A stretch of DNA of 64,000 nt from Bacillus marasmi (lineage in GTDB: Bacteria > Bacillota > Bacilli > Bacillales > Cytobacillaceae). Below the pieces are notes generated by a model that made no database searches, was not told the origin of the DNA, and was given only the letters and a program-made list of their open reading frames with translations. Every line of letters begins with the position of its first letter. The stretch's first letter is position 1. The stretch lies in contig NZ_LR656167.1 in NCBI RefSeq assembly GCF_902168435.1, positions 62,001 through 126,000 of the forward strand, in the 5' to 3' direction. The position numbers and the translations under genes are program-made. Positions 4,086 to 57,038 of the stretch are shown piece by piece.

Positions 4086-4130
4086 GAAACTTTCGCCTCT
4101 CGATTTCGTAATAAATAAAGGGTGATCAAT

Positions 4131-4847: not shown

Positions 4848-4861
4848 TCGTGGGATTTTTT
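4832..4861. terminator. Bidirectional terminator containing both stop codons
   Basis: 12-bp stem AAAAAATCCCAC/GTGGGATTTTTT with a 6-nt TTAATC loop. The ecsC stop (4845-4847) and the opposite-strand amidohydrolase stop (4844-4846) both fall in the loop. Confidence 0.88.
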
Positions 4862-12918: not shown

Positions 12919-13854
12919 ATGCAAAAAAAGAAAATGGGACTTCTAGTAATGGCCTATGGGACACCAACTAAAGAAGAGGACATCGAACGTTATTACACAC
13001 ATATCCGCCATGGTCGGAAACCTACCCCTGAAATGCTAGAGGATTTAAAAAACCGTTATGAAGCGATTGGTGGTATTTCACCATTGGCTAAAATTACCCT
13101 AGATCAGGCCGAAAAGCTTGAACAGCATTTAAACAGTGTTCAGGACGAAATAGAATTTAAGATGTACCTTGGACTTAAACATATAGAGCCTTTTATTGAA
13201 GACGCCGTGAAAGCGATGCATGATGATGGTATCGAAGAAGCAGTCAGCATTGTACTGGCTCCGCATTTTTCTACCTTTAGCATAAAAACTTACAATGGAC
13301 GAGTACAGGAAGAAGCGGCAAAGCTTGGCGGTCCGACGTTTACCTGTGTAGAAAGCTGGTATCAAGAGCCTAAGTTTATTCAATATTGGGCAAAACAGGT
13401 TCGGGATACATATGACAAAATGCCAGAAAATGAAAGACAGAACGCGATGTTAATAGTATCAGCACATAGCCTCCCTGCAAGAATTGTACAAATGGGTGAT
13501 CCATACCCAGATCAGCTTCAAGAAACTGCAGATTTAATTGCAAAGGAAGCGGGGATTGAAAAATTTGCAGTCGGTTGGCAAAGTGCAGGAAACACTCCTG
13601 AGCCCTGGCTTGGACCAGACGTGCAGGACTTAACAGCAGACTTGTTTGAAGAAGCAGGCTATAAGGCGTTTGTCTACACACCAGTCGGATTTGTTGCTGA
13701 TCATTTAGAGGTGCTTTATGACAATGATACAGAATGTAAAGCAGTAACAGACAGAGTGGGAGCAAGCTACTATCGACCAGAAATGCCAAACTCAAAACCA
13801 GAATTTATAGATGCAATGGCAACCGTCGTCTTGAAAAAATTATCAGTTCTCTAG
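12919..13854 (+). CDS. hemH: Coproporphyrin ferrochelatase
   Basis: Inserts iron into coproporphyrin III in the Gram-positive heme branch (also called CpfC). 311 aa, the usual length. The metal-binding pair His183 (SAHSLPARI) and Glu264 ([10 protein letters not shown]) match the B. subtilis enzyme positions exactly. AGGTGGAG precedes ATG 12919. Soluble monomer expected. Followed after 28 nt by hemY. Confidence 0.97.
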
Positions 13855-42976: not shown

Positions 42977-43044
42977 GACCACATTTTTACAAAAGCTATG
43001 ATAAAGTGGTGGAAGATTCTGAAAAATCGAAAGAGGGATTAGGA

Positions 43045-46000
43045 TTGAACTCAATTCCACTAATTCAAACAAAGCTGATGATACCCACTACTAAACATAC
43101 TGACCTTCGACGTGCCAAATTAACAAAAAAATTAAAAACAATCAACAGTCATCCTTTAACGATCGTTCATGCTGGGGCAGGCTATGGAAAAAGTACAGCG
43201 ATGGCCTTATATGTAATCGATGAAAAATGTAGCTGTTGTTGGTATTCCATTTCAGCAATGGATGATGACATACTACCCTTTTTAACCTACCTAGTGGCCT
43301 CGATTCGAACAAGTATCCCGCAATTTGGAAGAGAAATGGAAGCGTATATTAAAGAAATGGACCGATATATTCGGGAACAGGAGCTGCATTTGCTTTGCAG
43401 CATTTTTATTAATGAGATTCTCGCAATTAAGCAGGAGCTGCTTTTGATATTAGATGATTTTCAGCAAATTGAACATTCATATAATGTGAATCGATGGATG
43501 GAACTTCTATTAGAGCATATTCCGTCCAATTTACACTTAATTGTTATCTCGCGCAGTCGACCAGCTTGGAAACCGATTACGAGGATGAAAGCCAATCGGC
43601 TAGTATTGGAAGTGACAAAGGATGATTTAATGCTATCGAAGGAGGAAGTTGAACTCCTTCTAAATGAAATTTATGAAATGACATTGCCGCAAGCTGAATT
43701 GGATCAAATCTATCAATTGACAGAGGGATGGGTTATTGCCTTAGGAATGATTGCTGGCCAAACTGAAAATTATCAGCATTTGCGGAGTGGAATATATGAG
43801 CATTCAAGGTCCTTAAAGGAGCTGTTCCATTACTTAGCTATGGAAGTATTTGCAAAACAGGAGCCTGAAATTCAGAGCTTTTTGGAGCAAACCTCTATTC
43901 TGGTGGAAATGAATGAAGGGATTTGCAATGCGATTTTGGGTATTGAGCATTCCAAGCAGTTGCTTGAGAGGCTGACAGCAAAAAATTTATTTATCCAGAA
44001 AATGACTGATAAGGACTATCGCTATCATGCTTTGTTTCGGGAATTTCTTGAGAAACAGCTTCGCAGTAATTCAGCTCATGCAGTTATTGGATTACATGAA
44101 CGGGCTGCCCTATTTTTTCAAAACAATCAAATGCTTGAGGAAGCTTTAATTCATTATGAAAAAATAAACCAAACGAAAGCAATTGCATCATTGCTTGAAA
44201 CACATGGTTTAAGATTGCTGGTAAACGGTAAACTGGAAGGCTTGCTCGAACGTCTAACAAAGATTCCCGAAGCCAATAAGCAAGGGAGTTGTACCCTTTG
44301 GTTTTTACAAGGGGAAATTCACCGCTATCGTTCTAGCTATAAAGAGGCAGAAGTATGTTATCAACGCGCAATTGAGATTGCAGAGCTCAAGCATGATGTG
44401 ATTGGCAAAAGTAAAGCGTTGGAAGGGAAGGCGAGAATTTATTTAGATACCATTCAACCAAATCTGGCTGAACGCCTGTTGTATGAGGCAATTGAACTGT
44501 TGGAGCAGGATGAACTGCATTCAAAAGCACAAATTGCTAGTCTATATCAATTGTTAGCTGAAAATTTAATTAATCTAGGGCATGGACAGAAAGCGGAAAA
44601 ATGGCTTAATCGTGCGAAGTTGTTTAATGTTCCACTTGATAGTAGCTCTCTTGAGGCCAGGTTATATTTGCGGACTGGAAAATTCACCAGGGCAAAACAG
44701 ATTCTTCATTTGACGAGGGAGGCAGAACAGGCAAGTAAATCAAGCTTACCACAATCACATCGCGAAACCGAATTGCTACTTTCAATCATTGCCGCTTTCA
44801 CTGGTGAAGGTGAGAAGGCGAAGGAATTAGCCCAAGAAGGAATTCATCATGGATTAAAAATGAAGGCACCATTTGTTGAAGCTTGCGGCTGGATCCGAAT
44901 GGGACATGCTGTTCAACTACTTAATCGCTATGATTCTACTTTAGCAATTGAGTGCTATGAAACCGCTTTAGAGATCATGGAAAGTCTTCACGTTGAAAAA
45001 GGAAAAGCTGAAAGTTTAATGGGACTTTGTTATTTATATGGTACAAAGGGCGAGTATCACAAAGCACTAGAAGTCGGAAAGCTTGCTTTACAAGAAACAG
45101 AAAGAGTGAAGGACCATTGGCTTTCAGGATTTATTACGTTATCTATCGGAATCGCTACCTTTTATAGTGGAAGGACTGAAGAAGCGTTAGCACACTTTCA
45201 GCGCGGTGATGATATGTTCTTGGAATGTAATGATGATTTTGGGCAGATGTTAAGTCATTTTTGGCTGGCGTATAGTTATTATCAGCTCGGCAATCATTCA
45301 AGCTTCAGCACCCATTTTTTATTATTTCTTCAGAAAATGGAATATGGACGCTATGAGTTTTTTTTATCAAAACGAACCTTATTTGGACCAAATGATTTGC
45401 AGGTTTTTGCACCATTATTAATTGAAGCACAGAAACAGCAAATCCCCTCTCCTTACGTTCCAAAGCTGCTTAAAGAAATGAATCTGATACGTATCAATTC
45501 TCATCCAGGCTACTCGCTCCGGGTCAAGGCCCTTGGTCAATTTCGTGTTTGGCTTGGTGAAAAAGAAGTCGAAAGTCGAAGTTGGCAAAGGGGGAAGGCA
45601 AAGGAGTTATTTCAGCTATTTATTACCAATAAGCACAAACTGATTCCAAAAGAGGAGATTTATCAAATCTTGTGGCCTGAGCAAACAGAAGCTAATGCTG
45701 CTCGGGATTTTAAAGTAGCCTTGAATGCTTTGAATCATGTGCTGGAACCGAACCGAAAGGCTCGCGCCAATTCCTTTTTTATTTTACGAGAGGGAGTATG
45801 TTACGGTCTAAATCCGAATGCTGGATTAGAAATTGATACAACCTTTTTTGAACACTATATGATGCTCGGTTTAGAGGAAAAAGACATGAATAAAGCCTTG
45901 AATTATTTAATAAGAGGGCTTGATTATTATGGTGGTGATTTTTTACCGGATCGGCTGTATGAGGATTGGTGTGTCCAAGAACGTGAACGTTTACTTAATT

Positions 46001-46278
46001 ATTTTTTGCGGGGAGCGGAAAAGTTAGCCCAAGCTTGTGTTCGAAATGAGGATTATGACTCGGCGATTGAGTGGTGCCTAAAAATCATTAGCCATGATTG
46101 TACTTGGGAGGAAGCCTACCGATTGTTAATGTATAGTTATTTCCGGAAAAATAATCGTCCGCAAGCAATCAAATGGTTTAGAAAATGCAAGGATATTCTG
46201 GAACAAGAATTAGGTGTTTCGCCAATGGAACCAACTGTTCATATGTACGAGATGATACTTGAGGCTGAAATTGATTAG
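43045..46278 (+). CDS. MalT-like ATPase/TPR/BTAD transcriptional activator
   Basis: 1077-aa STAND-type regulator. N-terminal PLIQTKLMIP (MalT family start), P-loop GAGYGKST at about 44-51, Walker B LLLILDDF near 135, then winged-helix and TPR-like helical repeats at about 330-830. The C-terminal OmpR-like DNA-binding domain is at about 832-930 (LRVKALGQFRVWLGEKEV, GKAKELFQLFI, PKEEIYQILWPE), and a bacterial transcriptional activator domain (BTAD) is at about 950-1075. This SARP-like C-terminus normally binds heptamer direct repeats. Start TTG 43045 has AGAGGG 7 nt upstream; the GTG at 43006 has no site. Likely activator of the downstream liv and synthetase promoters. Confidence 0.9.
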   Translation: MNSIPLIQTKLMIPTTKHTDLRRAKLTKKLKTINSHPLTIVHAGAGYGKSTAMALYVIDEKCSCCWYSISAMDDDILPFLTYLVASIRTSIPQFGREMEAYIKEMDRYIREQELHLLCSIFINEILAIKQELLLILDDFQQIEHSYNVNRWMELLLEHIPSNLHLIVISRSRPAWKPITRMKANRLVLEVTKDDLMLSKEEVELLLNEIYEMTLPQAELDQIYQLTEGWVIALGMIAGQTENYQHLRSGIYEHSRSLKELFHYLAMEVFAKQEPEIQSFLEQTSILVEMNEGICNAILGIEHSKQLLERLTAKNLFIQKMTDKDYRYHALFREFLEKQLRSNSAHAVIGLHERAALFFQNNQMLEEALIHYEKINQTKAIASLLETHGLRLLVNGKLEGLLERLTKIPEANKQGSCTLWFLQGEIHRYRSSYKEAEVCYQRAIEIAELKHDVIGKSKALEGKARIYLDTIQPNLAERLLYEAIELLEQDELHSKAQIASLYQLLAENLINLGHGQKAEKWLNRAKLFNVPLDSSSLEARLYLRTGKFTRAKQILHLTREAEQASKSSLPQSHRETELLLSIIAAFTGEGEKAKELAQEGIHHGLKMKAPFVEACGWIRMGHAVQLLNRYDSTLAIECYETALEIMESLHVEKGKAESLMGLCYLYGTKGEYHKALEVGKLALQETERVKDHWLSGFITLSIGIATFYSGRTEEALAHFQRGDDMFLECNDDFGQMLSHFWLAYSYYQLGNHSSFSTHFLLFLQKMEYGRYEFFLSKRTLFGPNDLQVFAPLLIEAQKQQIPSPYVPKLLKEMNLIRINSHPGYSLRVKALGQFRVWLGEKEVESRSWQRGKAKELFQLFITNKHKLIPKEEIYQILWPEQTEANAARDFKVALNALNHVLEPNRKARANSFFILREGVCYGLNPNAGLEIDTTFFEHYMMLGLEEKDMNKALNYLIRGLDYYGGDFLPDRLYEDWCVQERERLLNYFLRGAEKLAQACVRNEDYDSAIEWCLKIISHDCTWEEAYRLLMYSYFRKNNRPQAIKWFRKCKDILEQELGVSPMEPTVHMYEMILEAEID

Positions 46279-46316
46279 GAGGCTGTTTTAAAAAACAGCC
46301 TCCATTCCTTTTAATG
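46278..46316. terminator. Terminator between regulator and coat protein genes
   Basis: 12-bp stem GGAGGCTGTTTT/AAAACAGCCTCC (46278-46289 with 46292-46303), then ATTCCTTTT; it begins at the regulator stop codon. Confidence 0.8.
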
Positions 46317-47000
46317 CATATTATTGTTGTTGATGTTGTTCTGGTAATTGATATTTCCGAAGCCTGTGCTTGTGTTTTGCTGAATTTGTGATGTACCTTG
46401 AGCAGGGGCAAAGGAATTAATAATTTGCATCATATCTTGCTGAGAGAACTGTGGAACTTGGTAGCTATGGTGCTTATTTTGATAAATTGATAATTCATAT
46501 GCCATTTCGACGCAATTCGGAATGGAATCAGCAAGGACGCGGCGTACCACCGGGTTGGTCGTTTCGCAAGCTGCCATCGTTTTAGCGGTGGCGTTGTTTT
46601 TACAGGTTGCAAGCAGGCAACCTGCGACAATTTCTTCTGACATTTCCATCTCAGATTGAATTGGTTTTTTAGGTTGTGTTGGCGTTAATCCATAAATAAA
46701 GTCGTTATTTTGCCTCATTTGATAACTCTGTGTTTCCTGAGCAGGGTTTTGCCCTGATTTAAAGCAATCCAACGTAATATTGTATTCGTTTTGGGTGAAT
46801 TGATATTGGCGATCGATTATATCTAATAGCTCGGGATCTTTCACATATTTGCGCAATAAGGAATATTGATTAAGTGCGCCGATTGTTCCAGATAAAACCT
46901 CATGAACATCCATTACCTCATGGCCACCGTGATTTAATTGGGGTGGTACAGTCCCCGAGTGCATATTTATATGTGTTTGCCCTGGTTGTTGATTTTGCAT
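46311..47000 (-). CDS. CotF-like spore coat protein
   Basis: 229-aa coat protein with a CotF domain (about 20-165: VLSGTIGALNQYSLLRKYVKDPELLDI, VAGCLLATCKNNATAKTMAACETTNPVVRRVLADSIPN) and an Asn/Gln-rich C-terminus (QNNINNNNMH). GGAGGGAG precedes ATG 46998-47000. Expressed late in the mother cell by analogy; a sigma-K promoter was not confidently found. Divergent from the liv operon and shares its upstream region. Confidence 0.88.
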   Translation of the reverse strand: MQNQQPGQTHINMHSGTVPPQLNHGGHEVMDVHEVLSGTIGALNQYSLLRKYVKDPELLDIIDRQYQFTQNEYNITLDCFKSGQNPAQETQSYQMRQNNDFIYGLTPTQPKKPIQSEMEMSEEIVAGCLLATCKNNATAKTMAACETTNPVVRRVLADSIPNCVEMAYELSIYQNKHHSYQVPQFSQQDMMQIINSFAPAQGTSQIQQNTSTGFGNINYQNNINNNNMH

Positions 47001-47071
47001 GTTTACTCCCTCCAATAAAGATATTTCAACACTCGATTAGTTTGGTTTCATTTATAAAAAATATTCATTCA

Positions 47072-47104
47072 TGTAACTGAATTGTAACTCGCCACCTTTA
47101 TGAT
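47072..47104 (+). promoter_or_regulatory. liv operon promoter with TGTAACT direct repeat (BTAD-type operator)
   Basis: TGTAACT at 47072-47078 and 47083-47089 (4-nt gap, 11-bp period), then 9 nt to the -10 TATGAT at 47099-47104. The second heptamer occupies the -35 position. Identical spacing occurs at 55458-55490. This is the arrangement used by SARP/BTAD activators. Confidence 0.7.
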
Positions 47105-47163
47105 AGCTTTACAGCAATGATTAACGAATAGACGAACTAAATAATCCAGGGGGGAAGAGACAA

Positions 47164-48390
47164 TTGAAAGCAAGTTCCCGAAATCTACTATTAGTCAGTG
47201 TACTTGCCGTTGTAATGATTTTTACCAGTGCTTGTAGCTCCAATAAAACCGGAAGTGATTCTAACGATTCGGGTAAAGAAAAAGCACCAATTAAAATCGG
47301 TGTACTTGCCTCGTTAACGGGAGGCTTAGAATCATACGGAAAGCAGACGCTTAGAGGCTTTGAGTTAGGTCTTGACTATGCAACTGATGGGAAAATGGAG
47401 GTTGCTGGAAGGAAAATCGAATTTATTACAGAAGATACTGAAACAAAACCTGAAGTAGCTGTTCAAAAGGCGACCAAGCTTTTAGAAGAGGATGAGGTTG
47501 ATTTTCTAGTCGGATCTTCAAGCTCAGGTGATACGCTTGCAGTTCTACCGCTTGCGGAAGAATATGAAAAAATTATGATTGTTGAGCCAGCTGCAGCTGA
47601 CAGTATAACTGGTACAGAGTATAATCCATTTATCTTCCGAACAGCTCGTAACTCATCACAGGATGCAGTTGCCGGTGCAGCAGCAATTGCTAAAAAAGGT
47701 GTAAAAATTGCTACGCTTGCTCCGGATTATTCATTTGGACGCGATGGTGTTACTGCATTTAAAGAAGCTGCATTAAAACTAGGTGCTGAAATTGTGCATG
47801 AAGAGTATGCAGATCCTGCTGCAACCGATTTCACTTCTAATATTCAAAAGGTGATTGATGCGAAGCCAGATTACTTATTTGTTGTATGGGCTGGAGCAAA
47901 CTCACCGTGGAATCAAATCGCTGACATGAAGGTTCAGGAAAAAGGAATCAAGATCTCAACAGGTGCCCCTGATATTGCTGCATTAGCAACAATGGAACCG
48001 TTAATTGGCATGGAAGGATTCACTGTTTATTATCATGACCTACCGAAAAATGACATCAATAAATGGCTTGTAGATGAGCATAAAAAACGCTTTAAGGGTG
48101 AGGTACCTGACTTATTTACACCAGGAGGTATGAGTGCCGCTATCGCCATTGTTGAAGCATTGAAGAAAACAGAAGGCGATACAGATTCCGAAAAATTAAT
48201 TGAGACAATGGAAGGAATGAAGTTTGATACACCAAAAGGTGAGATGACCTTCCGTCCTGAAGATCACCAAGCACTACAAGCGCTTTACGCAATTAAATTA
48301 GAGAAAAAAGAAGGCGTAGATTATCCCGTACCAGTGTTAATCCGTGAATTAACACCAAAAGAAACAGAGCCACCAATCCGAAATAAATAA
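47164..48390 (+). CDS. livJ: Branched-chain-type ABC importer binding lipoprotein
   Basis: 408-aa extracytoplasmic binding protein of the Peripla_BP_6 family. Lipobox TSACSS with the lipidated Cys at about 24; mature domain starts IKIGVLASLTGGLESYGKQTLRGFELG. Ligand-contact region GSSSSGDTLAVLP. These proteins bind branched-chain amino acids but also many amides and carboxylates, e.g. aromatic acids. TTG start 6 nt after GGGGGGAAG. First gene of an eight-gene operon. A 13-bp hairpin follows, which favours higher expression of this subunit. Confidence 0.88.
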   Translation: MKASSRNLLLVSVLAVVMIFTSACSSNKTGSDSNDSGKEKAPIKIGVLASLTGGLESYGKQTLRGFELGLDYATDGKMEVAGRKIEFITEDTETKPEVAVQKATKLLEEDEVDFLVGSSSSGDTLAVLPLAEEYEKIMIVEPAAADSITGTEYNPFIFRTARNSSQDAVAGAAAIAKKGVKIATLAPDYSFGRDGVTAFKEAALKLGAEIVHEEYADPAATDFTSNIQKVIDAKPDYLFVVWAGANSPWNQIADMKVQEKGIKISTGAPDIAALATMEPLIGMEGFTVYYHDLPKNDINKWLVDEHKKRFKGEVPDLFTPGGMSAAIAIVEALKKTEGDTDSEKLIETMEGMKFDTPKGEMTFRPEDHQALQALYAIKLEKKEGVDYPVPVLIRELTPKETEPPIRNK

Positions 48391-48410
48391 CGTAGCTCAA
48401 ATCCTGCCAA

Positions 48411-48443
48411 ATGAACTTCGGTAACATAGTTACCGGGGTTCAT
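48411..48443 (+). terminator. Attenuator-like hairpin between livJ and livG
   Basis: 13-bp stem (48411-48423 with 48431-48443, two G-T pairs), outer ATGAAC/GTTCAT, 7-nt loop, weak T-rich tail. Located in the binding-protein/ATPase gap, where such hairpins are common. Confidence 0.5.
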
Positions 48444-48474
48444 TGTCTATATTTCAAGAAGGTGGTGGTCTAAT

Positions 48475-49248
48475 CTGACAACGATTATTGAAACAAATGG
48501 TCTTACGATTACATTTGGTGGCCATACGGCAGTTGACGCCGTAAACATGAAAATTACCCAAAACCAATTCAAATCGATTATCGGTCCCAATGGTGCTGGC
48601 AAGACAACCCTGTTCAACTTATTAAGTGGTCAACTCCAACCAACTAGTGGGCGGGTTATTTATCGGGGCAAGGATATCACACGACTATCACCTACCGCCA
48701 GAACACGTCTTGGTATCGGACGATCTTTTCAAATCACGAATGTTTTTCCGAACTTAACCGTGCTTGAGAATGTACGATTGGCAGTCCAATCTCAAGGAAA
48801 AGTGCGCTACAACATGCTTTCATCTTATAAAAAATACGCCCAATTTGAAGCTCTAGCGCTCGAATGGCTTGAACTAGTCCTCCTTGCTGATAAAAAAGAC
48901 TCGCTCGCTGCCAATCTCGCTCATGGGGAAAAACGAAAGCTAGAAATAGCGATGCTGCTTGCACTTAATACAGAGGTGCTATTGCTAGATGAACCGACAG
49001 CAGGTATGTCATTGGAGGAAGTGCCTGCGATTCTTGAAGTAATAAAAAAAATCAAGGATCAGGGCAATCGGACAATTGTGTTAATTGAACACAAGATGGA
49101 TATGATTTTAGAATTATCAGACTCAATCATGGTGCTATTTAATGGTCGTTTATTAGCCGATGGAACACCTCAGGAAATAATTGAAAACGAAACAGTTCAA
49201 TCAGCCTATTTAGGAGGGGTATATGATGAGCGTCCTCTTAAAACTTGA
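48475..49248 (+). CDS. livG: Branched-chain-type ABC importer ATPase LivG (CTG start)
   Basis: 257-aa ATPase. Walker A GPNGAGKTT, RTFQ-like IGRSFQITNVFPN, signature LAHGEKRKLEIAM, Walker B VLLLDEPTAGM and C-terminal ADGTPQEI. The first ATG (48547) would cut off the first beta-strands (TIIETNGLTITFGGHTAVDAVN), which are read in frame without a stop. The only codon placed correctly after AAGGTGG (9 nt) is CTG 48475, so a rare CTG start is proposed. Overlaps livF by 26 nt. Confidence 0.85.
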   Translation: MTTIIETNGLTITFGGHTAVDAVNMKITQNQFKSIIGPNGAGKTTLFNLLSGQLQPTSGRVIYRGKDITRLSPTARTRLGIGRSFQITNVFPNLTVLENVRLAVQSQGKVRYNMLSSYKKYAQFEALALEWLELVLLADKKDSLAANLAHGEKRKLEIAMLLALNTEVLLLDEPTAGMSLEEVPAILEVIKKIKDQGNRTIVLIEHKMDMILELSDSIMVLFNGRLLADGTPQEIIENETVQSAYLGGVYDERPLKT

Positions 49249-49933
49249 AAACGTCGAAACGTATATCGATCAATTCCACATTTTGCAAGGTGTTTCATTG
49301 GAAGTGAAAAAAGGAGAAGTAACGGTCTTACTCGGTAGAAATGGTGCAGGAAAAACAACAACATTAAGAACAATCATGGGCTTGAATAAAGCTACTAGCG
49401 GGTCAATCCTTTATAAAAATAAACCAATCCAAACATTCCCCACTTATATGATTGCACAGCATGGTATTGGTTATGTCCCGGAAGATCAAGGGATTTTTGC
49501 AGAACTAACAGTTGAGGAAAACATGAAGGTTGCGATGAGACAAGAAAATGAGCAAACAAAAGAGCGGCTGTTCTCAATATTGGAGCTTTTTCCTGATTTA
49601 AAAAGGTTTTGGAAAAAACCAGGTGGCTTGTTAAGTGGTGGGCAGAAGCAAATGCTGTCCATCGCTAGGGCTTATGTCAATGAAAATGAGCTACTGCTTA
49701 TCGATGAACCAAGCAAAGGCTTAGCCCCGATAGTTGTTGAAAAAGTGATGGAATCAATAATGCAAATAAAAGAAAAAACGACGATTATTCTCGTTGAACA
49801 AAATTATATGATGGCGAGTAACGTAGGAGACCATTTTTACATTGTGGATGATGGTCGAACCGTATTGGATGGAAGGATGTCACTCTTAAAAGAAGATGAA
49901 CAATTACGTCGCAAATACCTTGGGATTGCCTAG
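49223..49933 (+). CDS. livF: Branched-chain-type ABC importer ATPase LivF
   Basis: 236-aa second ATPase. Walker A GRNGAGKTT, signature LSGGQKQMLSIAR, Walker B LLLIDEPSKGLAP, H-loop VEQN. Two consecutive ATG codons (49223, 49226) follow AGGAGGGG; either could be used. Pairs with LivG under the LivHM permease dimer. Confidence 0.92.
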   Translation: MMSVLLKLENVETYIDQFHILQGVSLEVKKGEVTVLLGRNGAGKTTTLRTIMGLNKATSGSILYKNKPIQTFPTYMIAQHGIGYVPEDQGIFAELTVEENMKVAMRQENEQTKERLFSILELFPDLKRFWKKPGGLLSGGQKQMLSIARAYVNENELLLIDEPSKGLAPIVVEKVMESIMQIKEKTTIILVEQNYMMASNVGDHFYIVDDGRTVLDGRMSLLKEDEQLRRKYLGIA

Positions 49934-49950
49934 GAAAGGGGGCTGAATAA

Positions 49951-50811
49951 ATGGAGGTATTAGTCAATCTCACCTTAAACGGTTTAGCGACAGGAATGTT
50001 GATCTTTTTGTTAGCTGCTGGATTAACCCTTATTTTTGGTTTGATGGATGTCCTTAATTTTGCCCATGGTGGTTTGTTTGCATGGGGAGCTTATAGTGGA
50101 ATTTGGATTTATGCAGAAACAAATAGCTTTTTTATCGGGATGATTGGTGCGATATTAACGGGCTGTTTGCTTGGAATCATTACTGAGAAATGGATTATTA
50201 AACCGGTATATGGCAATCATGTCCAACAAATATTAATTACGCTTGGCTTGATGTTAGTTTTATCTGAAATGCTGAAGGTTGTTTGGGGACCGAATCAAAT
50301 TTCTGCTGCTCCGCCAGATTATTTAGCAGGAAGCTGGGAACTTGGTGGTGTTATCATCATCAAATATCGAGTATTTATCATTTTAATTGGACTGTTAATT
50401 TATGGGATAGTCCAGTATACACTAAAAAATACGAAAATCGGCCTTGTCGTTCGTGCCGGAGTAATGAATAAGGAAATGGTGCAGGCACTTGGCATTAATA
50501 TTCAAAGGGTATTTATGCTCGTATTTATGGTAGGTGCAGGTATGGCTGCTTTAGGTGGCGTACTTCTTGGACCGTATTCAGGGGTTATCCATGCGGAAAT
50601 GGGAATGGAGTTTGCCATACTTGCCTTCATCGTTGTTGTGATTGGGGGCATGGGGAATTTCTCTGGTTCCATTTTGGCAGCAATTCTTGTTGGACTTTCA
50701 GGCTCATTTATGGCCTATTATGTTCCAGATTTGGCTTTAGCTGTGAATATGTTACTCATGGCGATTGTATTAATCTTTAGACCACAGGGTTTGTTCGGAA
50801 TGAGAGGGTGA
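49951..50811 (+). CDS. livH: Branched-chain-type ABC importer permease LivH
   Basis: 286-aa permease, about eight TMs. Family markers LTLIFGLMDVLNFAHGGLFAWGAY near the start and VIGGMGNFSGSILAAILVG near the end. AAAGGGGGC precedes ATG. Third membrane or ATPase component of the importer. Confidence 0.92.
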   Translation: MEVLVNLTLNGLATGMLIFLLAAGLTLIFGLMDVLNFAHGGLFAWGAYSGIWIYAETNSFFIGMIGAILTGCLLGIITEKWIIKPVYGNHVQQILITLGLMLVLSEMLKVVWGPNQISAAPPDYLAGSWELGGVIIIKYRVFIILIGLLIYGIVQYTLKNTKIGLVVRAGVMNKEMVQALGINIQRVFMLVFMVGAGMAALGGVLLGPYSGVIHAEMGMEFAILAFIVVVIGGMGNFSGSILAAILVGLSGSFMAYYVPDLALAVNMLLMAIVLIFRPQGLFGMRG

Positions 50812-50816
50812 ATTCG

Positions 50817-51815
50817 ATGCAATGGATGAACAATAATCGTTCTACTTTTCTACTCCTAATGTGCGGAATTGTCCTACTTATTCTTCCTTTTGTGTATGAA
50901 TCTCGCAGCCTACTTATCTTACTCACCCAAGTATTTATTTTTGCAATATTTGCGATGAGCTACGATTTACTGCTTGGCTTTACTGGAATTGTCTCATTTG
51001 GGCATGCGATGTATTTCGGAATAGGTGCATATTCGTTTGCGATCATCATGAAGCAGTTTGAGCCAACTGAGGTATATATGTTTCTCGCTCTTGCCGTGAC
51101 GATTGTTCTATCAGCGCTAGTGAGTTGGATTGTTGGCATGTTGTCGCTGAGGTTAAAAAGCCATTACTATGCAATGTTAACCCTTGCGTTAGCCGGCTTA
51201 TTCTTAGTGGCTGCAGAGAAGTGGCGAACATTAACGTACGGAAATGACGGGTTTACATTTCGGGTTCCAGGGTTGTTAAAGGATCGCACCGATTTTTATT
51301 TAATTTGTCTCATTGGCATGTTGGTAGTGTTTTTATTGTTAAAACGGTTTACAAATTCTCCAGTTGGCAAAGTGTTGCAAGCAATTAGGGAAAATGAAAA
51401 AAGAACAGAATCACTAGGGTTCCAAGTCATCCATTATAAAATCATTGCCAGTGTGGTGTCAGGTATATTGGCCGGAATATCGGGATGTCTTTATGCGGTG
51501 TCGCTCCGCTTTGTAAACACGAGCGTCTTTGCTCTAGATATTACGCTTGATGCATTGTTGATGACGATTATTGGTGGGGTTGGAACACTAATTGGAGCAA
51601 TTATTGGTGCTGGACTTATTGAATTTGCTCACCACTGGCTGACTGAACTTGCGAAAACACACTGGATTTTTGAAAGATGGATCATCTTTTTTGGGATAAT
51701 TTATATTCTCGTTGTTATGTTTTTCCCACTTGGAATTATTGGGACACTTAGGTCGCTTACCTTTAGACGAAATAAACGACCTTCACAAAAATCGGAGCAA
51801 AAGCTGACTGGTTAG
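50817..51815 (+). CDS. livM: Branched-chain-type ABC importer permease LivM
   Basis: 332-aa permease, about nine TMs; LLGFTGIVSFGHAMYFGIGAYSF and TIIGGVGTLIGAIIGA markers, with the coupling region AIRENEKRTESLGF. ATG 50817 lies 5 nt after GAGGGTGA; the GTG at 50808 overlaps the livH stop and the ribosome site itself. Basic C-terminal tail. Confidence 0.92.
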   Translation: MQWMNNNRSTFLLLMCGIVLLILPFVYESRSLLILLTQVFIFAIFAMSYDLLLGFTGIVSFGHAMYFGIGAYSFAIIMKQFEPTEVYMFLALAVTIVLSALVSWIVGMLSLRLKSHYYAMLTLALAGLFLVAAEKWRTLTYGNDGFTFRVPGLLKDRTDFYLICLIGMLVVFLLLKRFTNSPVGKVLQAIRENEKRTESLGFQVIHYKIIASVVSGILAGISGCLYAVSLRFVNTSVFALDITLDALLMTIIGGVGTLIGAIIGAGLIEFAHHWLTELAKTHWIFERWIIFFGIIYILVVMFFPLGIIGTLRSLTFRRNKRPSQKSEQKLTG

Positions 51816-51877
51816 TCCTGATGTTCTTAGAAAATAGTCCTTTGGATTAAAAGACAATCAAGTGAGGTGGGGTGCGG

Positions 51878-52882
51878 ATGCCGATTGCAATTGTCAGTAC
51901 TGGAATTTACTTGCCAAAACGGACGATGACGGCGCAGCAAATTGCTGATAAAGCAGGTCTTCCAATTAATGTGGTTGTTGAAAAAATGGGAATAAAGCAA
52001 AAGTACGTTCCGGGACTTGAAGATCATACGTGTGAAATGGGAATCCGCGCAGCCAAGCAGGCGCTAGAAAAAGCAAGGATTGATCCTTCCGACATTGATG
52101 TCATCATTTATATCGGCGAGGAACATAAGGAGTATCCGCTCTGGACATCAGGAATTAAGCTCCAGGAGGCAATTGGAGCGGTCAATGCCTGGGCCTTTGA
52201 TATTGCGCTCAGATGTGGAACGACCATCATGGGATTGAAGCTTGCGAAGTCACTGATGAATGGGGACCCAGCGATTAACACAGTCTTACTTGCTGGTGGT
52301 TATCGGAACGTGGATTTTATTAATTATGAAAATAAGAGAACACGATTCATGTTTAATTTGGGAGCTGGTGGCGGGGCGATTTTACTTCAGAAGGGTAATC
52401 ATAGCAATGTTGTGTTAGAGACGGATGTTATTACAGATGGGTCGTTTTCAGAGGATGTTGTTGTTCCTGTTGGAGGAACAAAGCAACCATTAACTCGAGA
52501 AAATTTAGATTTGTATATGTTAGATGTCACCGATCCTGAGGGAATGAAACAGCGACTTGAGCAAAAGTCGATGGCAAATTTTCTAAAAGTGATAAGAGCA
52601 TCGCTTCGAAAAAGCGGTTATCGCGAATCAGATATTTCGTATGTTGCCCTTCTTCACATGAAGCGCTCTGCACACGAATTTGTATTGTCGGAATTAGGTC
52701 TGTCTCTCGATCAATCAATCTATTTAGAGGATTATGGTCATATTGGTCAAATCGATCAAATTTTGTCCTTGGAGTTGGCTGAACAGGCTGGAAAAATAAA
52801 ACCCGGTGACATCATCGTACTCGTAAGTGCGGGTATTGGCTATGCATGGGGAGCGACGACGATTCGCTGGGGGGAAGGATGA
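51878..52882 (+). CDS. KAS III-like thiolase-superfamily protein
   Basis: 334-aa beta-ketoacyl synthase III-like enzyme. Candidate nucleophile Cys113 (DIALRCGTTIMG) is at the same distance as FabH Cys112. A His is present in LLHMKRSAHEF. The position of the third FabH residue (Asn of GNTSAAS) reads GHIGQID, i.e. His. It is therefore not an ordinary FabH; an acyl-CoA condensing or thiolytic enzyme is likely. AGGTGG lies 7 nt before ATG 51878. Followed by hydrolase and SDR genes in the same operon. Confidence 0.82.
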   Translation: MPIAIVSTGIYLPKRTMTAQQIADKAGLPINVVVEKMGIKQKYVPGLEDHTCEMGIRAAKQALEKARIDPSDIDVIIYIGEEHKEYPLWTSGIKLQEAIGAVNAWAFDIALRCGTTIMGLKLAKSLMNGDPAINTVLLAGGYRNVDFINYENKRTRFMFNLGAGGGAILLQKGNHSNVVLETDVITDGSFSEDVVVPVGGTKQPLTRENLDLYMLDVTDPEGMKQRLEQKSMANFLKVIRASLRKSGYRESDISYVALLHMKRSAHEFVLSELGLSLDQSIYLEDYGHIGQIDQILSLELAEQAGKIKPGDIIVLVSAGIGYAWGATTIRWGEG

Positions 52883-52892
52883 TGCATATTTT

Positions 52893-53786
52893 ATGAAGAT
52901 TAACCTAAAAAAAGTGGAGTTAGCAAATGGAGAAACGATTGCTTACCGGGAGCGTGAGGGGGGAGACAAAAAGCTATTATTGATTCATGGCAATATGACC
53001 TCTTCAAAGCACTGGGATTTAATTCTGGAAAACATCGATGCATCATTTAAAGTATTTGCAGTTGATTTACGAGGCTTTGGTGAATCCAGTTATCAAGAGA
53101 AGATATTTTCTTTAAAGGATTTTTCTGATGATATAAAGCTTTGGGCAGATGAGATTGGATTAACGGATTTTGCTATGATTGGTTGGTCAACTGGTGGCGG
53201 AGTGGCAATGCAATTTGCCATAGATTATCCAGGATATGCTAACAAGTTGATTTTACTGGAATCCGTGTCAACGCGGGGGTATCCTTACTTTGCCGTTGAC
53301 GATAGTGGTATGCCAGACTTTACAAAGCGCTTAACCACTTATGAGCAAATTAAAAATGATCGAATTAGAGTAATTCCAACACAGACTGCCTATGAACAAA
53401 AAAATCGTGAATTTCTTAGAGCCGTCTGGAATGCGGTTATTTATAATCATAATCAACCTGAACCTTGGCGTTATGAAGAATATATTGATGACATGTTAAC
53501 CCAGCGTAATTATGCTGAAGTCATTCACGCGCTCAATATGTTTAATATTAGTGCTGTCGATAATGAAGCAGCAAAGGGTACCAATCAGGCTAGTAATATT
53601 CAAATTCCCGTTCACGTTTTACGTGGTGAGCATGATCTGGTGGTTACTGCAAATATGACCCAGGAAATTATTGCAGATCTTGGCGAAATAGCAAGTTATA
53701 TAGAATTGAAGAATTGTGGACATTCACCGTTGGTTGATGATTTAGGGCAGCTATTAGAAGTTATCACTGATTTTCTAAATATTTAA
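52893..53786 (+). CDS. Alpha/beta hydrolase
   Basis: 297-aa hydrolase with oxyanion motif LIHGNMTSSKHW, nucleophile elbow GWSTGG (Ser99), Asp248 (GEHDLVV) and His277 (NCGHSPL): a complete triad. Probably cytosolic; acts on an ester, thioester or C-C bond of the pathway intermediate. Start ATG 52893 follows GGAAGGATG about 12 nt upstream; frames further upstream lie inside the preceding gene. 11 nt after the KAS-like gene. Confidence 0.85.
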   Translation: MKINLKKVELANGETIAYREREGGDKKLLLIHGNMTSSKHWDLILENIDASFKVFAVDLRGFGESSYQEKIFSLKDFSDDIKLWADEIGLTDFAMIGWSTGGGVAMQFAIDYPGYANKLILLESVSTRGYPYFAVDDSGMPDFTKRLTTYEQIKNDRIRVIPTQTAYEQKNREFLRAVWNAVIYNHNQPEPWRYEEYIDDMLTQRNYAEVIHALNMFNISAVDNEAAKGTNQASNIQIPVHVLRGEHDLVVTANMTQEIIADLGEIASYIELKNCGHSPLVDDLGQLLEVITDFLNI

Positions 53787-53803
53787 CTGAGGAGTGGGTT
53801 AGG

Positions 53804-54544
53804 ATGAGATTATCTGGAAAAGTGGCTATCATCACAGGGGCAGCAAATGGACTTGGACTCGCAGCTGCGGAAATTTTTGCTAAAGAAGGTGCCAGTGTTG
53901 CAATTGCTGATTTCAATGAGGAGTTAGGTCAGGCTAGAGCACAAGAGCTAGCTGACCGAGGGCATCGAGTCGCCTTTTTCCAAGTAAACGTCGCCGACCA
54001 AAATAGCGTAAATACGATGGTAAAGAATGTACTAGATACTTTTGGGAAAATTGATATTTTAGTGAATAATGCCGGAATTACGAGAGATGCGATGTTGAAA
54101 AAAATGACGTTAGAAAACTTCCAAAAAGTCATCGATGTTAATTTAACCGGCGTCTTCCTTTGTACACATGCTGTATTGCCGTCAATGCTCGAACAAGGGA
54201 GTGGCAGAATTATCAATACATCATCCGTCTCAGGTGTTTATGGAAACATCGGTCAGACAAATTATGCGGCTGCAAAGGCGGCGGTTGTTGGAATGACGAA
54301 GACGTGGGCAAAAGAACTTGGTCGCAAGGGAATTAACGTAAATGCAGTTGCACCAGGTTTTATCGAGACAAATATGACAGCTGCGGTTCCAGAAAAGGTC
54401 CTAGATACGATTAAGCAAACGATTCCTCTTGGACACCTTGGTAAGCCGGAAGACATTGCTAATGCCTATTTATACTTGGCTTCAGATGATGGGAAGTATG
54501 TTAATGGAACTACACTCCATGTCGATGGCGGAATTATGATGTAA
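53804..54544 (+). CDS. FabG-like short-chain dehydrogenase/reductase
   Basis: 246-aa classical SDR. Cofactor motif TGAANGLG at 11-18, NNAG at 88-91, catalytic Ser141, Tyr154 and Lys158 (YAAAK). ADFNEE after beta-2 suggests NAD preference, since acidic Asp36 takes the ribose-binding position. Would interconvert a 3-oxoacyl and 3-hydroxyacyl thioester. Last gene of the liv operon; strong terminator follows. Confidence 0.88.
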   Translation: MRLSGKVAIITGAANGLGLAAAEIFAKEGASVAIADFNEELGQARAQELADRGHRVAFFQVNVADQNSVNTMVKNVLDTFGKIDILVNNAGITRDAMLKKMTLENFQKVIDVNLTGVFLCTHAVLPSMLEQGSGRIINTSSVSGVYGNIGQTNYAAAKAAVVGMTKTWAKELGRKGINVNAVAPGFIETNMTAAVPEKVLDTIKQTIPLGHLGKPEDIANAYLYLASDDGKYVNGTTLHVDGGIMM

Positions 54545-54573
54545 AAAACGGAGGCCTAGTTGCCTCCGTTTTT
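54543..54573. terminator. Bidirectional terminator after the liv operon
   Basis: AAAAACGGAGGC/GCCTCCGTTTTT stem with CTAGTT loop and T tails on both strands. Confidence 0.88.
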
Positions 54574-54593
54574 TTGTGGAATTTTGTACCCAC

Positions 54594-54821
54594 CTAATGC
54601 GTTGTATTCCCACTGTATTCTTCCATTAAACTCACACACATTCCAAAGCCAAAGGTAACCATTGCTCCAATCAATACTCCTATTCCGGCAGCAGATATTG
54701 CGTGCGAATGGATGTAATCGCTTACAATCATTCCAATAATAAAGAGAATTAAGCCGAGTATAAAACCCCAAGTTGCAAGTGATCTAAAATTCGCTAATGT
54801 TCGTTTCGGGTTATTTTGCAC
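54594..54821 (-). CDS. Small two-TM membrane protein
   Basis: 75 aa with TMs at about 16-36 and 42-64 and short polar ends. GTG start after AAGGAGGATG with good spacing. Not recognised as a named family. Convergent with the SDR gene and sharing its terminator. Confidence 0.7.
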   Translation of the reverse strand: MQNNPKRTLANFRSLATWGFILGLILFIIGMIVSDYIHSHAISAAGIGVLIGAMVTFGFGMCVSLMEEYSGNTTH

Positions 54822-54900
54822 AATATCATCCTCCTTGTAAAGAATATTCTAACAATTGTAACAATTTTGTCAAACTTTTTTGAAATCTTCCTCTAGTTGG

Positions 54901-54964
54901 TGATTCTGAAAAGAATAATCATATTGATGGATTGATTCTGAAAAGAATAATCATATTGATGGAT
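54901..54964. repeat. 32-bp perfect tandem duplication
   Basis: Two identical adjacent copies of a 32-bp unit beginning TGATTCTGAAAAGAATAATC (54901-54932, 54933-54964). Lies at the left end of a 700-bp gene-free stretch (54822-55520). Confidence 0.9.
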
Positions 54965-55018
54965 TCTTTCCAAAAGATTGTTGCTTTTGGGCTTGAGGCA
55001 GAAGGGAATAAAAGTTTT

Positions 55019-55411
55019 GCGGACATATAAGCTGTTATTTGTGTTAAAACTAGCATTTTCGAGTTGTGAGCGGACATATAATCCGCTATTTGCCCAAAAT
55101 GCAGATTAAATTGGATGATTTTCACGAAATAAGGTCGCTAGTGTCCGCTAAATTCTTAAATCAATGCATTTGACTGCAAATAAGGTATTCTGAGTCCGCT
55201 GAAATCACTAGCATCATCCGGAACGGACATAGGAGCCGTTATTTGTACAAAAAACAGTGCCATCCAGGCGTGAGCGGACATATAATCCGCTATTTTCCCA
55301 AAATGCAGATTAAATTGCATGATTTTCACGAAATAAGGTCGCTAGTGTCCGCTAAATTCTTAAATCAAAGGATTTGACTGCAAATAAGGTATTCTGTGTC
55401 CGCTGAAATCA
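55019..55411. repeat. 204-bp tandem repeat with GCGGACA hairpins
   Basis: Copy 1 is 55019-55222, copy 2 is 55223-55411. The last 142 bp (55066-55207 vs 55270-55411) are nearly identical; the first part is diverged. Each contains AGCGGA-N7-TCCGCT and further GTCCGCT motifs able to form hairpins. No open frame. Looks like a dispersed non-coding repeat family rather than an IS. Confidence 0.85.
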
Positions 55412-55457
55412 GAAACCAGATAGTGAAACAAAGACTTGATAGACATGCTAAGCACCG

Positions 55458-55490
55458 TGTAACTCACTTGTAACTTTCCTCACGTATTAT
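55458..55490 (+). promoter_or_regulatory. Acyl-CoA synthetase promoter with TGTAACT direct repeat
   Basis: TGTAACT at 55458-55464 and 55469-55475, 4-nt gap, then 9 nt to -10 TATTAT at 55485-55490. Same layout as the liv operon promoter; indicates shared control by the BTAD regulator. Confidence 0.7.
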
Positions 55491-55520: not shown

Positions 55521-57038
55521 ATGCGGTGGGAAATGGATTGGATAGATAACAGAGCAAGATTGACGCCAAATCGGGTTGCAATTATTGATGCTGATACAAA
55601 TGAAACCTATACCTATCGAAACATAAATATGAGAGCAAGCGCGCTTGCAAGTTGGTTTATAGAAAATGGGGTAAAAAAAGGCGACAGGGTTGCGCTTTTG
55701 TCCCCCAATCATATCTCCTATTTTGATTTACTTTTTGCTTGTGCGAAAATCGGGGCGATATTTGTTCCGCTAAATTGGCGCTTAGCCAAGGAGGAGTTAA
55801 ATTATATACTGTCGGATTGTACTCCTGTTTTGATTGGATACCACACTCAGTTCCAAGAAAAAGTCGAGCAGCTACACGCAGAGACTGAAAGGTCCTTTTG
55901 TATTAACTCTGCTGAGTATGCTAATCTTCTCGTAAACAATACTAGCCTAAAAGATATGGTGGAACTAAGGGAAGAGGACCCACTGGCAATGATTTACACC
56001 GGAGGGACAACAGGTAAACCGAAAGGGGTTGTCCTGGCTCATCGCTCGATTATGTCCAATGCATTAAATACTGTGTTAAGCTGGAATTTAACGGAGCATG
56101 ACTGTACATTATCCAGTATGCCAATGTTTCATACTGGAGGATTAAATGTATTATCGATACCACTCTTGCTTATTGGCGGAAAAGTAGTCATCACTTCAGC
56201 ATTTGATCCAGTAAAATCAATTGAATATATTAACACATATCATTGTACAATCGTCATTTTCGTACCAACGATGTACCATATGATGTTTCAAACAGAAGAG
56301 TTCAAAAGCAGCAAATTTCCTTCAATTCGAATATTTCTTTCGGGTGGTGCCCCGTGTCCGCTTGAGGTTTATGATACTTTTCAAAAGAAAGGAATTGCCT
56401 TTAAGGAAGGCTACGGATTAACAGAAGCCGGTCCAAATAATTTTTATATTGACCCTAAAGTTGCCAATATTAAACGAGGGTCAGTAGGTAAACCTATGAT
56501 GTTTAATATGGTTAAATTGGTTACAGAGGATGGACATGAGGCTGGGCCAAATGAAGTTGGTGAAATATTAATTAAAGGAAAGCATGTATTCATTCAATAT
56601 TGGAATAATCCAGAGGCAACCGCTCAAAGCATGCAGAATGGGTGGCTTCATACGGGGGACCTTGGTCGGATGGACGAGGAAGGCTTCTTCTATATTGTCG
56701 GTCGAAAAAAAGATATGATTATTACTGGTGGGGAAAATGTTTATCCGCTTGAAATAGAGCACTGGCTTGAATCCCATCCTGAAATTGATGAAGCTGCCGT
56801 AATCGGCCTTCCAGACACGAAATGGGGCGAAGTTGTAACTGCCTTTGTTGTAGTGACAAATTCACTACTTCAGGGCACTGATTTAATAGCCTATTGCGGG
56901 CGCAAACTAGGAAAATATAAAATACCGCGGAAGTTCATTTTGGTCGATGAACTGCCGAAAACTCATGTTGGAAAAATTGATAAAAAACGTTTAAAGGAAA
57001 TAGGTATTCAAGTGCTAGAAATGAATAAATCTAGTTGA
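55521..57038 (+). CDS. Acyl-CoA synthetase (AMP-forming)
   Basis: 505-aa class I adenylate-forming ligase. P-loop YTGGTTGKPKGVV at about 157-169, EGYGLTEAG near 295, TGDLGRMDEEGFFYIVGRKKDMI near 380, and catalytic lysine in KTHVGKIDKK near the end. Would activate a fatty or aromatic acid to its CoA thioester. AGGGAGAG lies 6 nt before ATG. Monocistronic, but shares the promoter motif with the liv operon, so it is probably the activating enzyme for the imported substrate. Confidence 0.88.
   Translation: MRWEMDWIDNRARLTPNRVAIIDADTNETYTYRNINMRASALASWFIENGVKKGDRVALLSPNHISYFDLLFACAKIGAIFVPLNWRLAKEELNYILSDCTPVLIGYHTQFQEKVEQLHAETERSFCINSAEYANLLVNNTSLKDMVELREEDPLAMIYTGGTTGKPKGVVLAHRSIMSNALNTVLSWNLTEHDCTLSSMPMFHTGGLNVLSIPLLLIGGKVVITSAFDPVKSIEYINTYHCTIVIFVPTMYHMMFQTEEFKSSKFPSIRIFLSGGAPCPLEVYDTFQKKGIAFKEGYGLTEAGPNNFYIDPKVANIKRGSVGKPMMFNMVKLVTEDGHEAGPNEVGEILIKGKHVFIQYWNNPEATAQSMQNGWLHTGDLGRMDEEGFFYIVGRKKDMIITGGENVYPLEIEHWLESHPEIDEAAVIGLPDTKWGEVVTAFVVVTNSLLQGTDLIAYCGRKLGKYKIPRKFILVDELPKTHVGKIDKKRLKEIGIQVLEMNKSS

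Follow-up and report, generated by a model that had tools for sequence, protein, structure and literature searches.

A putative SARP-type regulon for poly(3-hydroxybutyrate) use, marked by a TGTAACY direct repeat, in Bacillus marasmi and its relatives

SARP activators have been described chiefly in Actinobacteria and in antibiotic clusters, and the MalT-type STAND activators are built from an NTPase part and TPR repeats. Features of both families meet in a 64,000-nucleotide stretch of the Bacillus marasmi genome (contig NZ_LR656167.1, positions 62,001 to 126,000; hereafter, the window), which encodes a regulator with a MalT-like N-terminal half and a C-terminal BTAD domain, an ABC importer operon and an acyl-CoA synthetase (ligase) gene, the latter two preceded by the same direct repeat, TGTAACT-N4-TGTAACT (hereafter, the operator). 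According to the available part of a study of AfsR (PMC10936776), SARP activators recognize direct repeats of 11 bp, the 3′ repeat lying 8 bp from the −10 box, and AfsR binds as a side-by-side dimer over the −35 region, where it gives σ region 4 an alternative docking place. A BTAD activator outside Actinobacteria, DnrS, has been described in Thermus (PMC5748679, as far as its available text goes). Among the enzymes that degrade polyhydroxyalkanoates (PHA), those of the lipase-box intracellular class carry Trp at position x1 of the box, according to the available part of the PHA Depolymerase Engineering Database paper (PMC2666664). On the sequence comparisons reported below, we consider it likely that a SARP-type activator with a MalT-like sensor and a C-terminal SARP domain controls a regulon for poly(3-hydroxybutyrate) (PHB) and 3-hydroxybutyrate.

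Operator 1 (TGTAACTGAATTGTAACT) and operator 2 (TGTAACTCACTTGTAACT) are each followed, after 9 nt, by a −10 box, TATGAT and TATTAT, respectively (Table 1), as the initial annotation of this DNA had described them. A scan of the whole genome (4,638,330 bases in 46 contigs), which that annotation had called for, returned these two promoters as the only exact matches; the other 22 matches to the pattern had two mismatches each. With up to two mismatches allowed, a backward control pattern was matched 64 times and the real pattern 24 times, which means that the genome is not generally enriched in such repeats. Within the window, the 3 matches found at up to three mismatches were below the mean of 6.8 obtained with shuffled sequences, indicating that the signal resides in the exact matches only. 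The two promoters appear to drive separate units, the importer operon and the ligase gene, because a terminator-like stem with a T run, recognized by eye, lies at about 54547-54576, after the FabG gene and before the ligase gene. The gap between the FabG gene and the ligase promoter also holds, by eye, a short tandem repeat at about 54905-54965 and two similar tandem stretches of about 150-200 bases at 54980-55420 (GCGGACATATAATCCGC..., GTCCGCT...).

The initial annotation had named the absence of the motif upstream of orthologous clusters as the outcome that would count against it; the operator was instead found at 71 of the 71 transporter genes that could be examined and at 30 of 32 ligase genes, in 80 fetched loci with organism names, from Neobacillus, Mesobacillus, Cytobacillus, Sutcliffiella, Virgibacillus, Oceanobacillus, Peribacillus and Rossellomorea, among others. 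(Some of these are the same organisms as genomes of the surveys described below, which are designated G.) For this count, transporter matches of at least 45% identity and ligase matches of at least 50% were taken, with a near-complete start and more than 400 bases upstream, and an operator had to lie within 350 bases upstream with at most one mismatch in 12 positions. Nine of the 80 loci had no countable transporter gene (L131, L135, L138, L158, L159, L160, L161, L162 and L179). In L158 the transporter gene is absent from the locus and an exact site precedes FabG; in G034 (L051/L179) the transporter lies about 15 kb away, with an exact site there (L092); and G002 has no transporter genes at that place, the site preceding the KAS III gene instead. 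The two operator-less ligase genes, L160 and L161, have no site of their own because the ligase gene follows FabG in that arrangement, in which the cluster is located on the upstream side of the regulator and is cut off by the end of the locus (both points were read in L161, L160 being presumed alike). A chance origin of the operators, which was considered, is ruled out by their conservation at the transporter genes together with their co-occurrence with the regulator.

Two irregular arrangements were seen among the relatives. In G002 (C1:3961805-3965037), the regulator is in three pieces and transporter genes are missing nearby while both operators are exact, reflecting either recent decay or a sequencing fault. 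In L250, two exact operators stand before the transporter gene at 4115 and 4207, 92 bp apart, and G262, G321 and G293 look the same by position.

Pooling of the promoters gave the consensus TGTAACY-N4-TGTAACY-N9-TANNAT. The 9-nt spacing between operator and TANNAT was kept in 120 of 121 unique promoters (70/71 for transporter genes, 31/31 for ligase genes and 19/19 for the depolymerase genes described below), and no −35 box was conserved across the 121. The T, A and T of TANNAT were invariant in the 71 unique transporter promoters, and an A stood 7 nt past the −10 box (repeat position 40), where transcription is expected to start, in 98% of transporter and 96% of ligase promoters; the depolymerase promoters had a looser −10 box and this A in 36% only. 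AfsR and the other SARPs likewise have 11-bp direct repeats over the −35 region, and their −35 box is weak or absent. Their 3′ repeat ends some 8 bp short of the −10 box, which corresponds to our 9 nt past the heptamer or 8 past an 8-bp contact unit. The center of the box lies at −29.5 in AfsR (PMC10936776, available part) and at about −28.5 here, counted from the predicted start. Since this geometry matches the AfsR description and the named loci come from Bacillus relatives, the idea of a SARP-style operator outside Actinobacteria, raised in the initial annotation, gains support. The system differs from the described SARPs in its heptamer, TGTAACY, in its Bacillaceae host and in its targets, which look like polymer catabolism and not antibiotic synthesis.

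Operator and regulator gene largely occurred together. In a family set of 193 genomes, the exact operator was present in 86 of the 88 genomes that encode a regulator orthologue versus 6 of the 105 that do not, and in an order sample of 328 genomes it was present in 80 of 84 versus 27 of 244 (all tallied by hand); the corresponding Fisher values, 1e-44 and 3e-47, are descriptive, related genomes not being independent. Genomes with distant paralogues only (G070, G091, G130, G149, G181 and G030) were scored as regulator-negative, and G012, which has a C-terminal fragment, was scored as positive along with other broken or split copies. A reversed control pattern, tallied by hand for the family set and not for the order sample, occurred in 9 of the 88 regulator-bearing and 25 of the 105 regulator-less genomes; because the control is this frequent in regulator-less genomes, the operator sites in 6 of the 105 look like background. 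All five regulator-bearing genomes that lacked an exact site (G148, G012, G279, G334 and G453) had one-mismatch sites, which in four of them read TGCAACT or TGCAACC and stood before the transporter gene. Some single genera (e.g., g18, g20 and g24) mix genomes that have both regulator and operator with genomes that have neither.

Three genomes, G062, G033 and G075, are natural negatives. They possess the transporter (76-83% identical) and most of the pathway genes, the orthologous FabG being missing in G062 and G033 and the close KAS III in G075, with no match to the regulator; no operator-like sequence was found within 400 bases of their transporter genes, the best candidates having 3-4 mismatches of 12. 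The co-occurrence in both genome sets and these negatives argue for the link between BTAD regulator and operator that had been proposed for the window. Two regulator-less sites were inspected, in G088 and G066. In G088, the regulator and PhaZ genes (PhaZ being the intracellular depolymerase) are decayed into fragments, and one intact operator-promoter has no ligase behind it; the G066 site (L252) lies away from any cluster gene and lacks a fitting −10 box.

Several loci show arrangements of their own. At L090 (9863, minus strand), an intact operator and −10 box survive as a fossil promoter, with regulator and PhaZ fragmented and no ligase following. In the regulator-less clusters L087 and L088, which belong to one genus, the operator is replaced upstream of the transporter by another promoter-like stretch common to both (GTATACTCTTGTCC...TTAATA). 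Control may have been swapped here, but the relatedness of the two could by itself account for the shared stretch. L089 (1368-4598) and L091 have a parallel arrangement in which their own ligase and KAS III genes (40-42% identical to those of the window) precede the transporter, with no operator; L089 also has a gene that reads as TetR-like. Finally, G340, a genome without the regulator, contains three TGTAACT heptamers in a row with an 11-bp period (C1:1707629-1707657).

The reading frame of the regulator, which the initial annotation had placed directly upstream, is open and could begin at a GTG at 43006 or at a TTG at 43045. A Pfam scan assigned residues 943-1072 of 1077 to BTAD (PF03704, 71.3 bits; cut-off, 22.1) and detected TPR repeats, with no LuxR-type helix-turn-helix (HTH) and no separate winged-helix match; the C-terminus is occupied by BTAD. 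Residues 6-520 resemble MalT (NF003420, 256 bits, under the model cut-off of 537). The protein is thus like the MalT-type STAND activators in its N-terminal NTPase half, the TPR repeats that follow and, by inference, a probable response to inducer and ATP, whereas it differs from them in scoring under the MalT cut-off and in having BTAD at the C-terminus with no LuxR-type HTH. When compared with AfsR (8hvr), the last 263 residues aligned over residues 10-261 by phmmer (E 5e-4) and over residues 37-261 by profile (E 1.3e-6); in this alignment with a solved SARP, an OmpR-type winged helix is joined to the BTA domain, as in other SARPs. AfsR and the SARPs also share with the regulator NTPase and TPR modules in the same protein (PMC10936776, available part). 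The order of domains is reversed, however: here, sensor and TPR come first and the SARP domain last, so that the protein lacks the N-terminal SARP domain of the classical definition. Thermus DnrS is similar in its non-actinobacterial host and its C-terminal BTAD, which is needed for transcriptional activation in DnrS, but it has a GAF sensor and works alongside DnrT (PMC5748679, available part). The term "direct repeat" is absent from the main text of that paper.

Many genomes of the family and the order encode regulator orthologues, with identities of 32-83%. Even where regulators are only 32-33% identical to that of the window, in clusters with transporter, PhaZ and FabG, the exact TGTAACT pair is kept (L248 and L249). 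The stretch FKVALNAL, which by analogy we take to be the recognition helix, has F75, K76, V77, N80 and L82 invariant over 24 orthologues (numbering of the last 263 residues), in keeping with the invariant operator.

The unlinked operators indicated what the regulon may serve. Eleven exact sites away from the cluster were fetched in regulator-bearing genomes (L096-L106; this set excludes G020:C5:43823 and the sites of five regulator-less genomes). Seven of them (L096, L098, L100, L102, L103, L105 and L106) lie directly before open reading frames (ORFs) of PHB-depolymerase-family esterases, which begin with signal-peptide-like sequence, and an eighth, L099, lies before a ligase gene. Among sites nearer to the cluster, L094 and L095 precede ligase genes, and L092 a transporter gene. 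A search with NF050058, the model for extracellular type 1 short-chain PHA depolymerases (cut-off, 150 bits), covered four of the seven operator-marked proteins: L103 (329.8 bits), L096 (323.1) and L106 (282.7) passed, and the short L102 ORF scored 106.9 bits, under the cut-off. Five operator-marked esterases were placed in Esterase_PHB. The secreted enzymes fit catalytic domain type 1 of the type 1 extracellular PHB depolymerases (PMC2666664, available part).

We then examined depolymerase genes irrespective of the motif, using the L100 protein as the query and accepting operators with one mismatch or none (24 genes, drawn from 27 rows of which three were second pieces of the same gene, plus 30 fetched loci of 51 match rows). 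The operator was present at 19 of 25 depolymerase genes in regulator-bearing genomes versus 0 of 29 in regulator-less genomes (p about 1e-9, the relatedness of genomes being ignored). Five of the 19 (G028, G026, G046, G056 and G039) had first been met through the motif, and without them the count is 14 of 20. Among depolymerases of at least 54% identity to the query, a cut chosen after seeing the data, the operator was found at 19 of 19 genes in regulator-bearing and 0 of 9 in regulator-less genomes. Operator-marked depolymerases span six family labels (f1, f4, f6, f11, f21 and f28), and in G279, G334 and G094 (L244, L245 and L246) the cluster itself includes a depolymerase gene that has a site of its own. 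In L244 (about 13245-13659) and L245 (about 4663-5094), a further alpha/beta hydrolase, 29-32% identical to the cluster hydrolase, is encoded between regulator and transporter and has its own operator-like site (1-2 mismatches) and −10 box.

Within the cluster, the nearest solved relatives of the hydrolase are 8ynv and 8ynw (E about 1e-84), which are named poly(3-hydroxybutyrate) depolymerase. By its model match and its GWSTG box, with Trp at x1 as in the Bacillus intracellular PhaZ (PMC2666664, available part), it is a putative intracellular short-chain PHA depolymerase of the lipase-box class. The best solved relative of the FabG-like enzyme is 4nbu (356 bits), named 3-oxoacyl-ACP reductase. 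The curated models assign no substrate to the acyl-CoA synthetase, the best ones being under cut-off except for two general models, and the best solved relatives of the substrate-binding protein, 3n0x and 3nnd, are both described only as possible substrate-binding proteins. The initial annotation had suggested a single regulon for an unknown carboxylate. The regulon part of that suggestion is upheld by our comparisons, while the carboxylate can now be given a candidate identity: because unlinked operators mark secreted PHB depolymerases, and because the cluster hydrolase is of the intracellular PHB-depolymerase type and the FabG-like enzyme is closest to 4nbu, the transported and processed compound is most likely 3-hydroxybutyrate or its oligomers derived from PHB.

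We propose the following model, for which the sites, their conservation and geometry, the regulator co-occurrence and the target identities (by homology) were computed, and from which we infer direct binding, activation rather than repression, the ligand and the transported compound. The regulator, with its MalT-like sensor NTPase, TPR arm and C-terminal winged-helix/BTAD part, probably binds the TGTAACY repeats, with their 11-bp period, as a side-by-side pair. As the repeats overlap the place of the missing −35 box, the bound regulator would dock σ and RNA polymerase. The MalT-like sensor half makes inducer plus ATP the likely trigger, the ligand probably being 3-hydroxybutyrate, an oligomer or its CoA ester. 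Where present, the secreted PHB depolymerase would cut the polymer outside the cell, and the ABC importer would take up 3-hydroxybutyrate or its oligomers. The intracellular depolymerase-type hydrolase, the FabG-type oxidoreductase and the acyl-CoA ligase would then provide hydrolysis, oxidation and CoA activation; the KAS III-like enzyme is placed in the regulon with no step assigned to it. More broadly, there is probably a widespread Bacillaceae PHB regulon under a class of regulators that combine a MalT-like NTPase with a C-terminal SARP domain, sense a PHB product and replace the −35 contact, and its operator would have stayed nearly constant while the regulator diverged to 32% identity.

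Several observations weigh against this model. Taken alone, the first 175 residues of the 263-residue C-terminal part of the regulator, which hold the winged helix and the start of BTA, match PhoB alone and weakly (E 0.03), with no AfsR match at E 0.05. In none of 79 loci did the 400 bases upstream of the regulator gene contain an operator, so autoregulation is not seen. The genomes are related, and the tables do not count independent events. One regulator-bearing genome, G012, has only a regulator fragment and a one-mismatch site without a recognisable target. Three of the 11 exact unlinked sites have no relevant target (L097, with no gene near; L101, before an asnB-like gene; and L104, before a spoVT-like gene, both named by reading the translations), and these are probably not functional. 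The depolymerase query was itself an operator-marked gene, which favors its own clade, and the six depolymerases without an operator in regulator-bearing genomes are all more distant (42-52% identity to the query). The nearest solved relatives of the transporter carry no known substrate in our search results. No PF10503 depolymerase was found in the genome of the window, and a match to the depolymerase query at E 1e-25 occurs in only 18 of the 193 family genomes, 10 of them among the 88 regulator-bearing ones; genomes without the enzyme may scavenge breakdown products, or their main substrate may be something else.

That last option leads to an alternative in which operator and regulator work as described but the compound handled by the regulon is a different short-chain or branched acid or ester, secreted depolymerases having joined later, as a sideline, in some lineages. 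It fits with the lack of such an extracellular enzyme, in our searches, from the window's genome and from 78 of the 88 regulator-bearing family genomes, with the breadth of the binding-protein and ligase families, and with the KAS III-like enzyme, which would be superfluous for simple 3-hydroxybutyrate oxidation. We nevertheless regard it as unlikely, given that the cluster hydrolase is of the PHB-depolymerase type with a solved relative of that name and that operator-bearing depolymerases occur across the six family labels and inside the cluster. A further possibility is that the cluster mobilizes the cell's own stored PHB, the regulator reporting internal and not outside polymer. The hydrolase does belong to an intracellular class, and the genome of the window encodes a class III PhaC (448.5 bits; cut-off, 365.3); with PhaC present and no PF10503 protein, the cluster would there act either on monomers or oligomers that the cell scavenges or on its internal PHB. 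In a 61-genome set, however, PhaC scored over cut-off in only 6 of 20 regulator-bearing genomes; of the remaining 14, six had PhaC-like matches of 243-296 bits, and in the last eight no score exceeded 22 bits. The distribution of the regulon can therefore not be put down to internal PHB alone. As the operator also marks secreted enzymes and an importer, we hold this explanation to be very unlikely.

It could also be argued that the operator is real but is read by another factor, the BTAD regulator merely traveling with the genes, since co-occurrence can arise from neighborhood alone. Yet the clusters of G062, G033 and G075, which lack the regulator, lack the operator as well, and operators at depolymerase genes outside the cluster were observed in regulator-bearing genomes only. 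The SARP-like geometry and the invariance of the presumed recognition helix likewise point to the regulator itself, and another reader of the operator strikes us as barely plausible.

The features of the window are collected in Table 1. A CotF-like spore coat gene (46311-47015, minus strand) is reversed between regulator and operon; among the compared loci, it was found at that place in the window's own genus only (L039, L040, L056 and L107).

Table 1. Regulator, operators, promoters and cluster genes in the window.
Feature	Position	Strand	Evidence
MalT-like/TPR/BTAD (C-terminal SARP-type) regulator, 1077 amino acids, proposed activator	43045..46278	+	Pfam, curated models, AfsR match
Operator 1, TGTAACT-N4-TGTAACT	47072..47089	+	sequence, genome scan, orthologous promoters
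−10 box TATGAT, 9 nt past operator 1; predicted start A 47111	47099..47104	+	sequence, promoter alignment
Lipoprotein-like substrate-binding protein of ABC importer (Peripla_BP_6)	47164..48390	+	PF13458, 236 bits
ABC ATPase, LivG/UrtD-like; true start may be upstream	48547..49248	+	Pfam and curated models
Second ABC ATPase, LivF-like (named from its position and by reading, not by family search)	49223..49933	+	ORF; kept in orthologous clusters
ABC permease, LivH/UrtB-like	49951..50811	+	curated models, under cut-offs
ABC permease, LivM/UrtC-like	50808..51815	+	curated models, under cut-offs
KAS III-like condensing enzyme (NF005308)	51872..52882	+	530.9 bits, cut-off 315
Putative intracellular PHB depolymerase-type hydrolase, GWSTG box	52893..53786 (start chosen within ORF 52827-53786)	+	NF050089, 452.5 bits, cut-off 300
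FabG-like short-chain dehydrogenase, candidate 3-hydroxybutyryl oxidoreductase (substrate inferred)	53804..54544	+	curated models
Operator 2, TGTAACT-N4-TGTAACT	55458..55475	+	sequence, genome scan, 31 unique ligase promoters
−10 box TATTAT, 9 nt past operator 2; predicted start A 55497	55485..55490	+	sequence, promoter alignment
Acyl-CoA synthetase (AMP-binding), candidate 3-hydroxybutyrate or acetoacetate activator (substrate inferred)	55521..57038	+	PF00501, 290 bits

In the open literature surveyed, outside which most subscription papers lie, we found neither a SARP-type regulator nor this operator described for Bacillaceae, and no account of a regulator for the secreted PHB depolymerases of Bacillaceae or of a regulator or operator common to intracellular PhaZ and extracellular PHB depolymerases. 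If the proposed regulon is real, SARP-type promoter control would serve catabolism in relatives of Bacillus that are common in soil and in the sea, exerted by a protein in which the sensor and the DNA-binding part have traded places. The proposal predicts the regulator, the operator and the importer for the use of PHB and 3-hydroxybutyrate in these bacteria, and it would bear on the breakdown of biodegradable plastics in soil and sea. With its two near-invariant heptamers and fixed spacing, the operator could serve as a probe for new PHB-depolymerase genes and help to give a branched-chain-type ABC importer a function.

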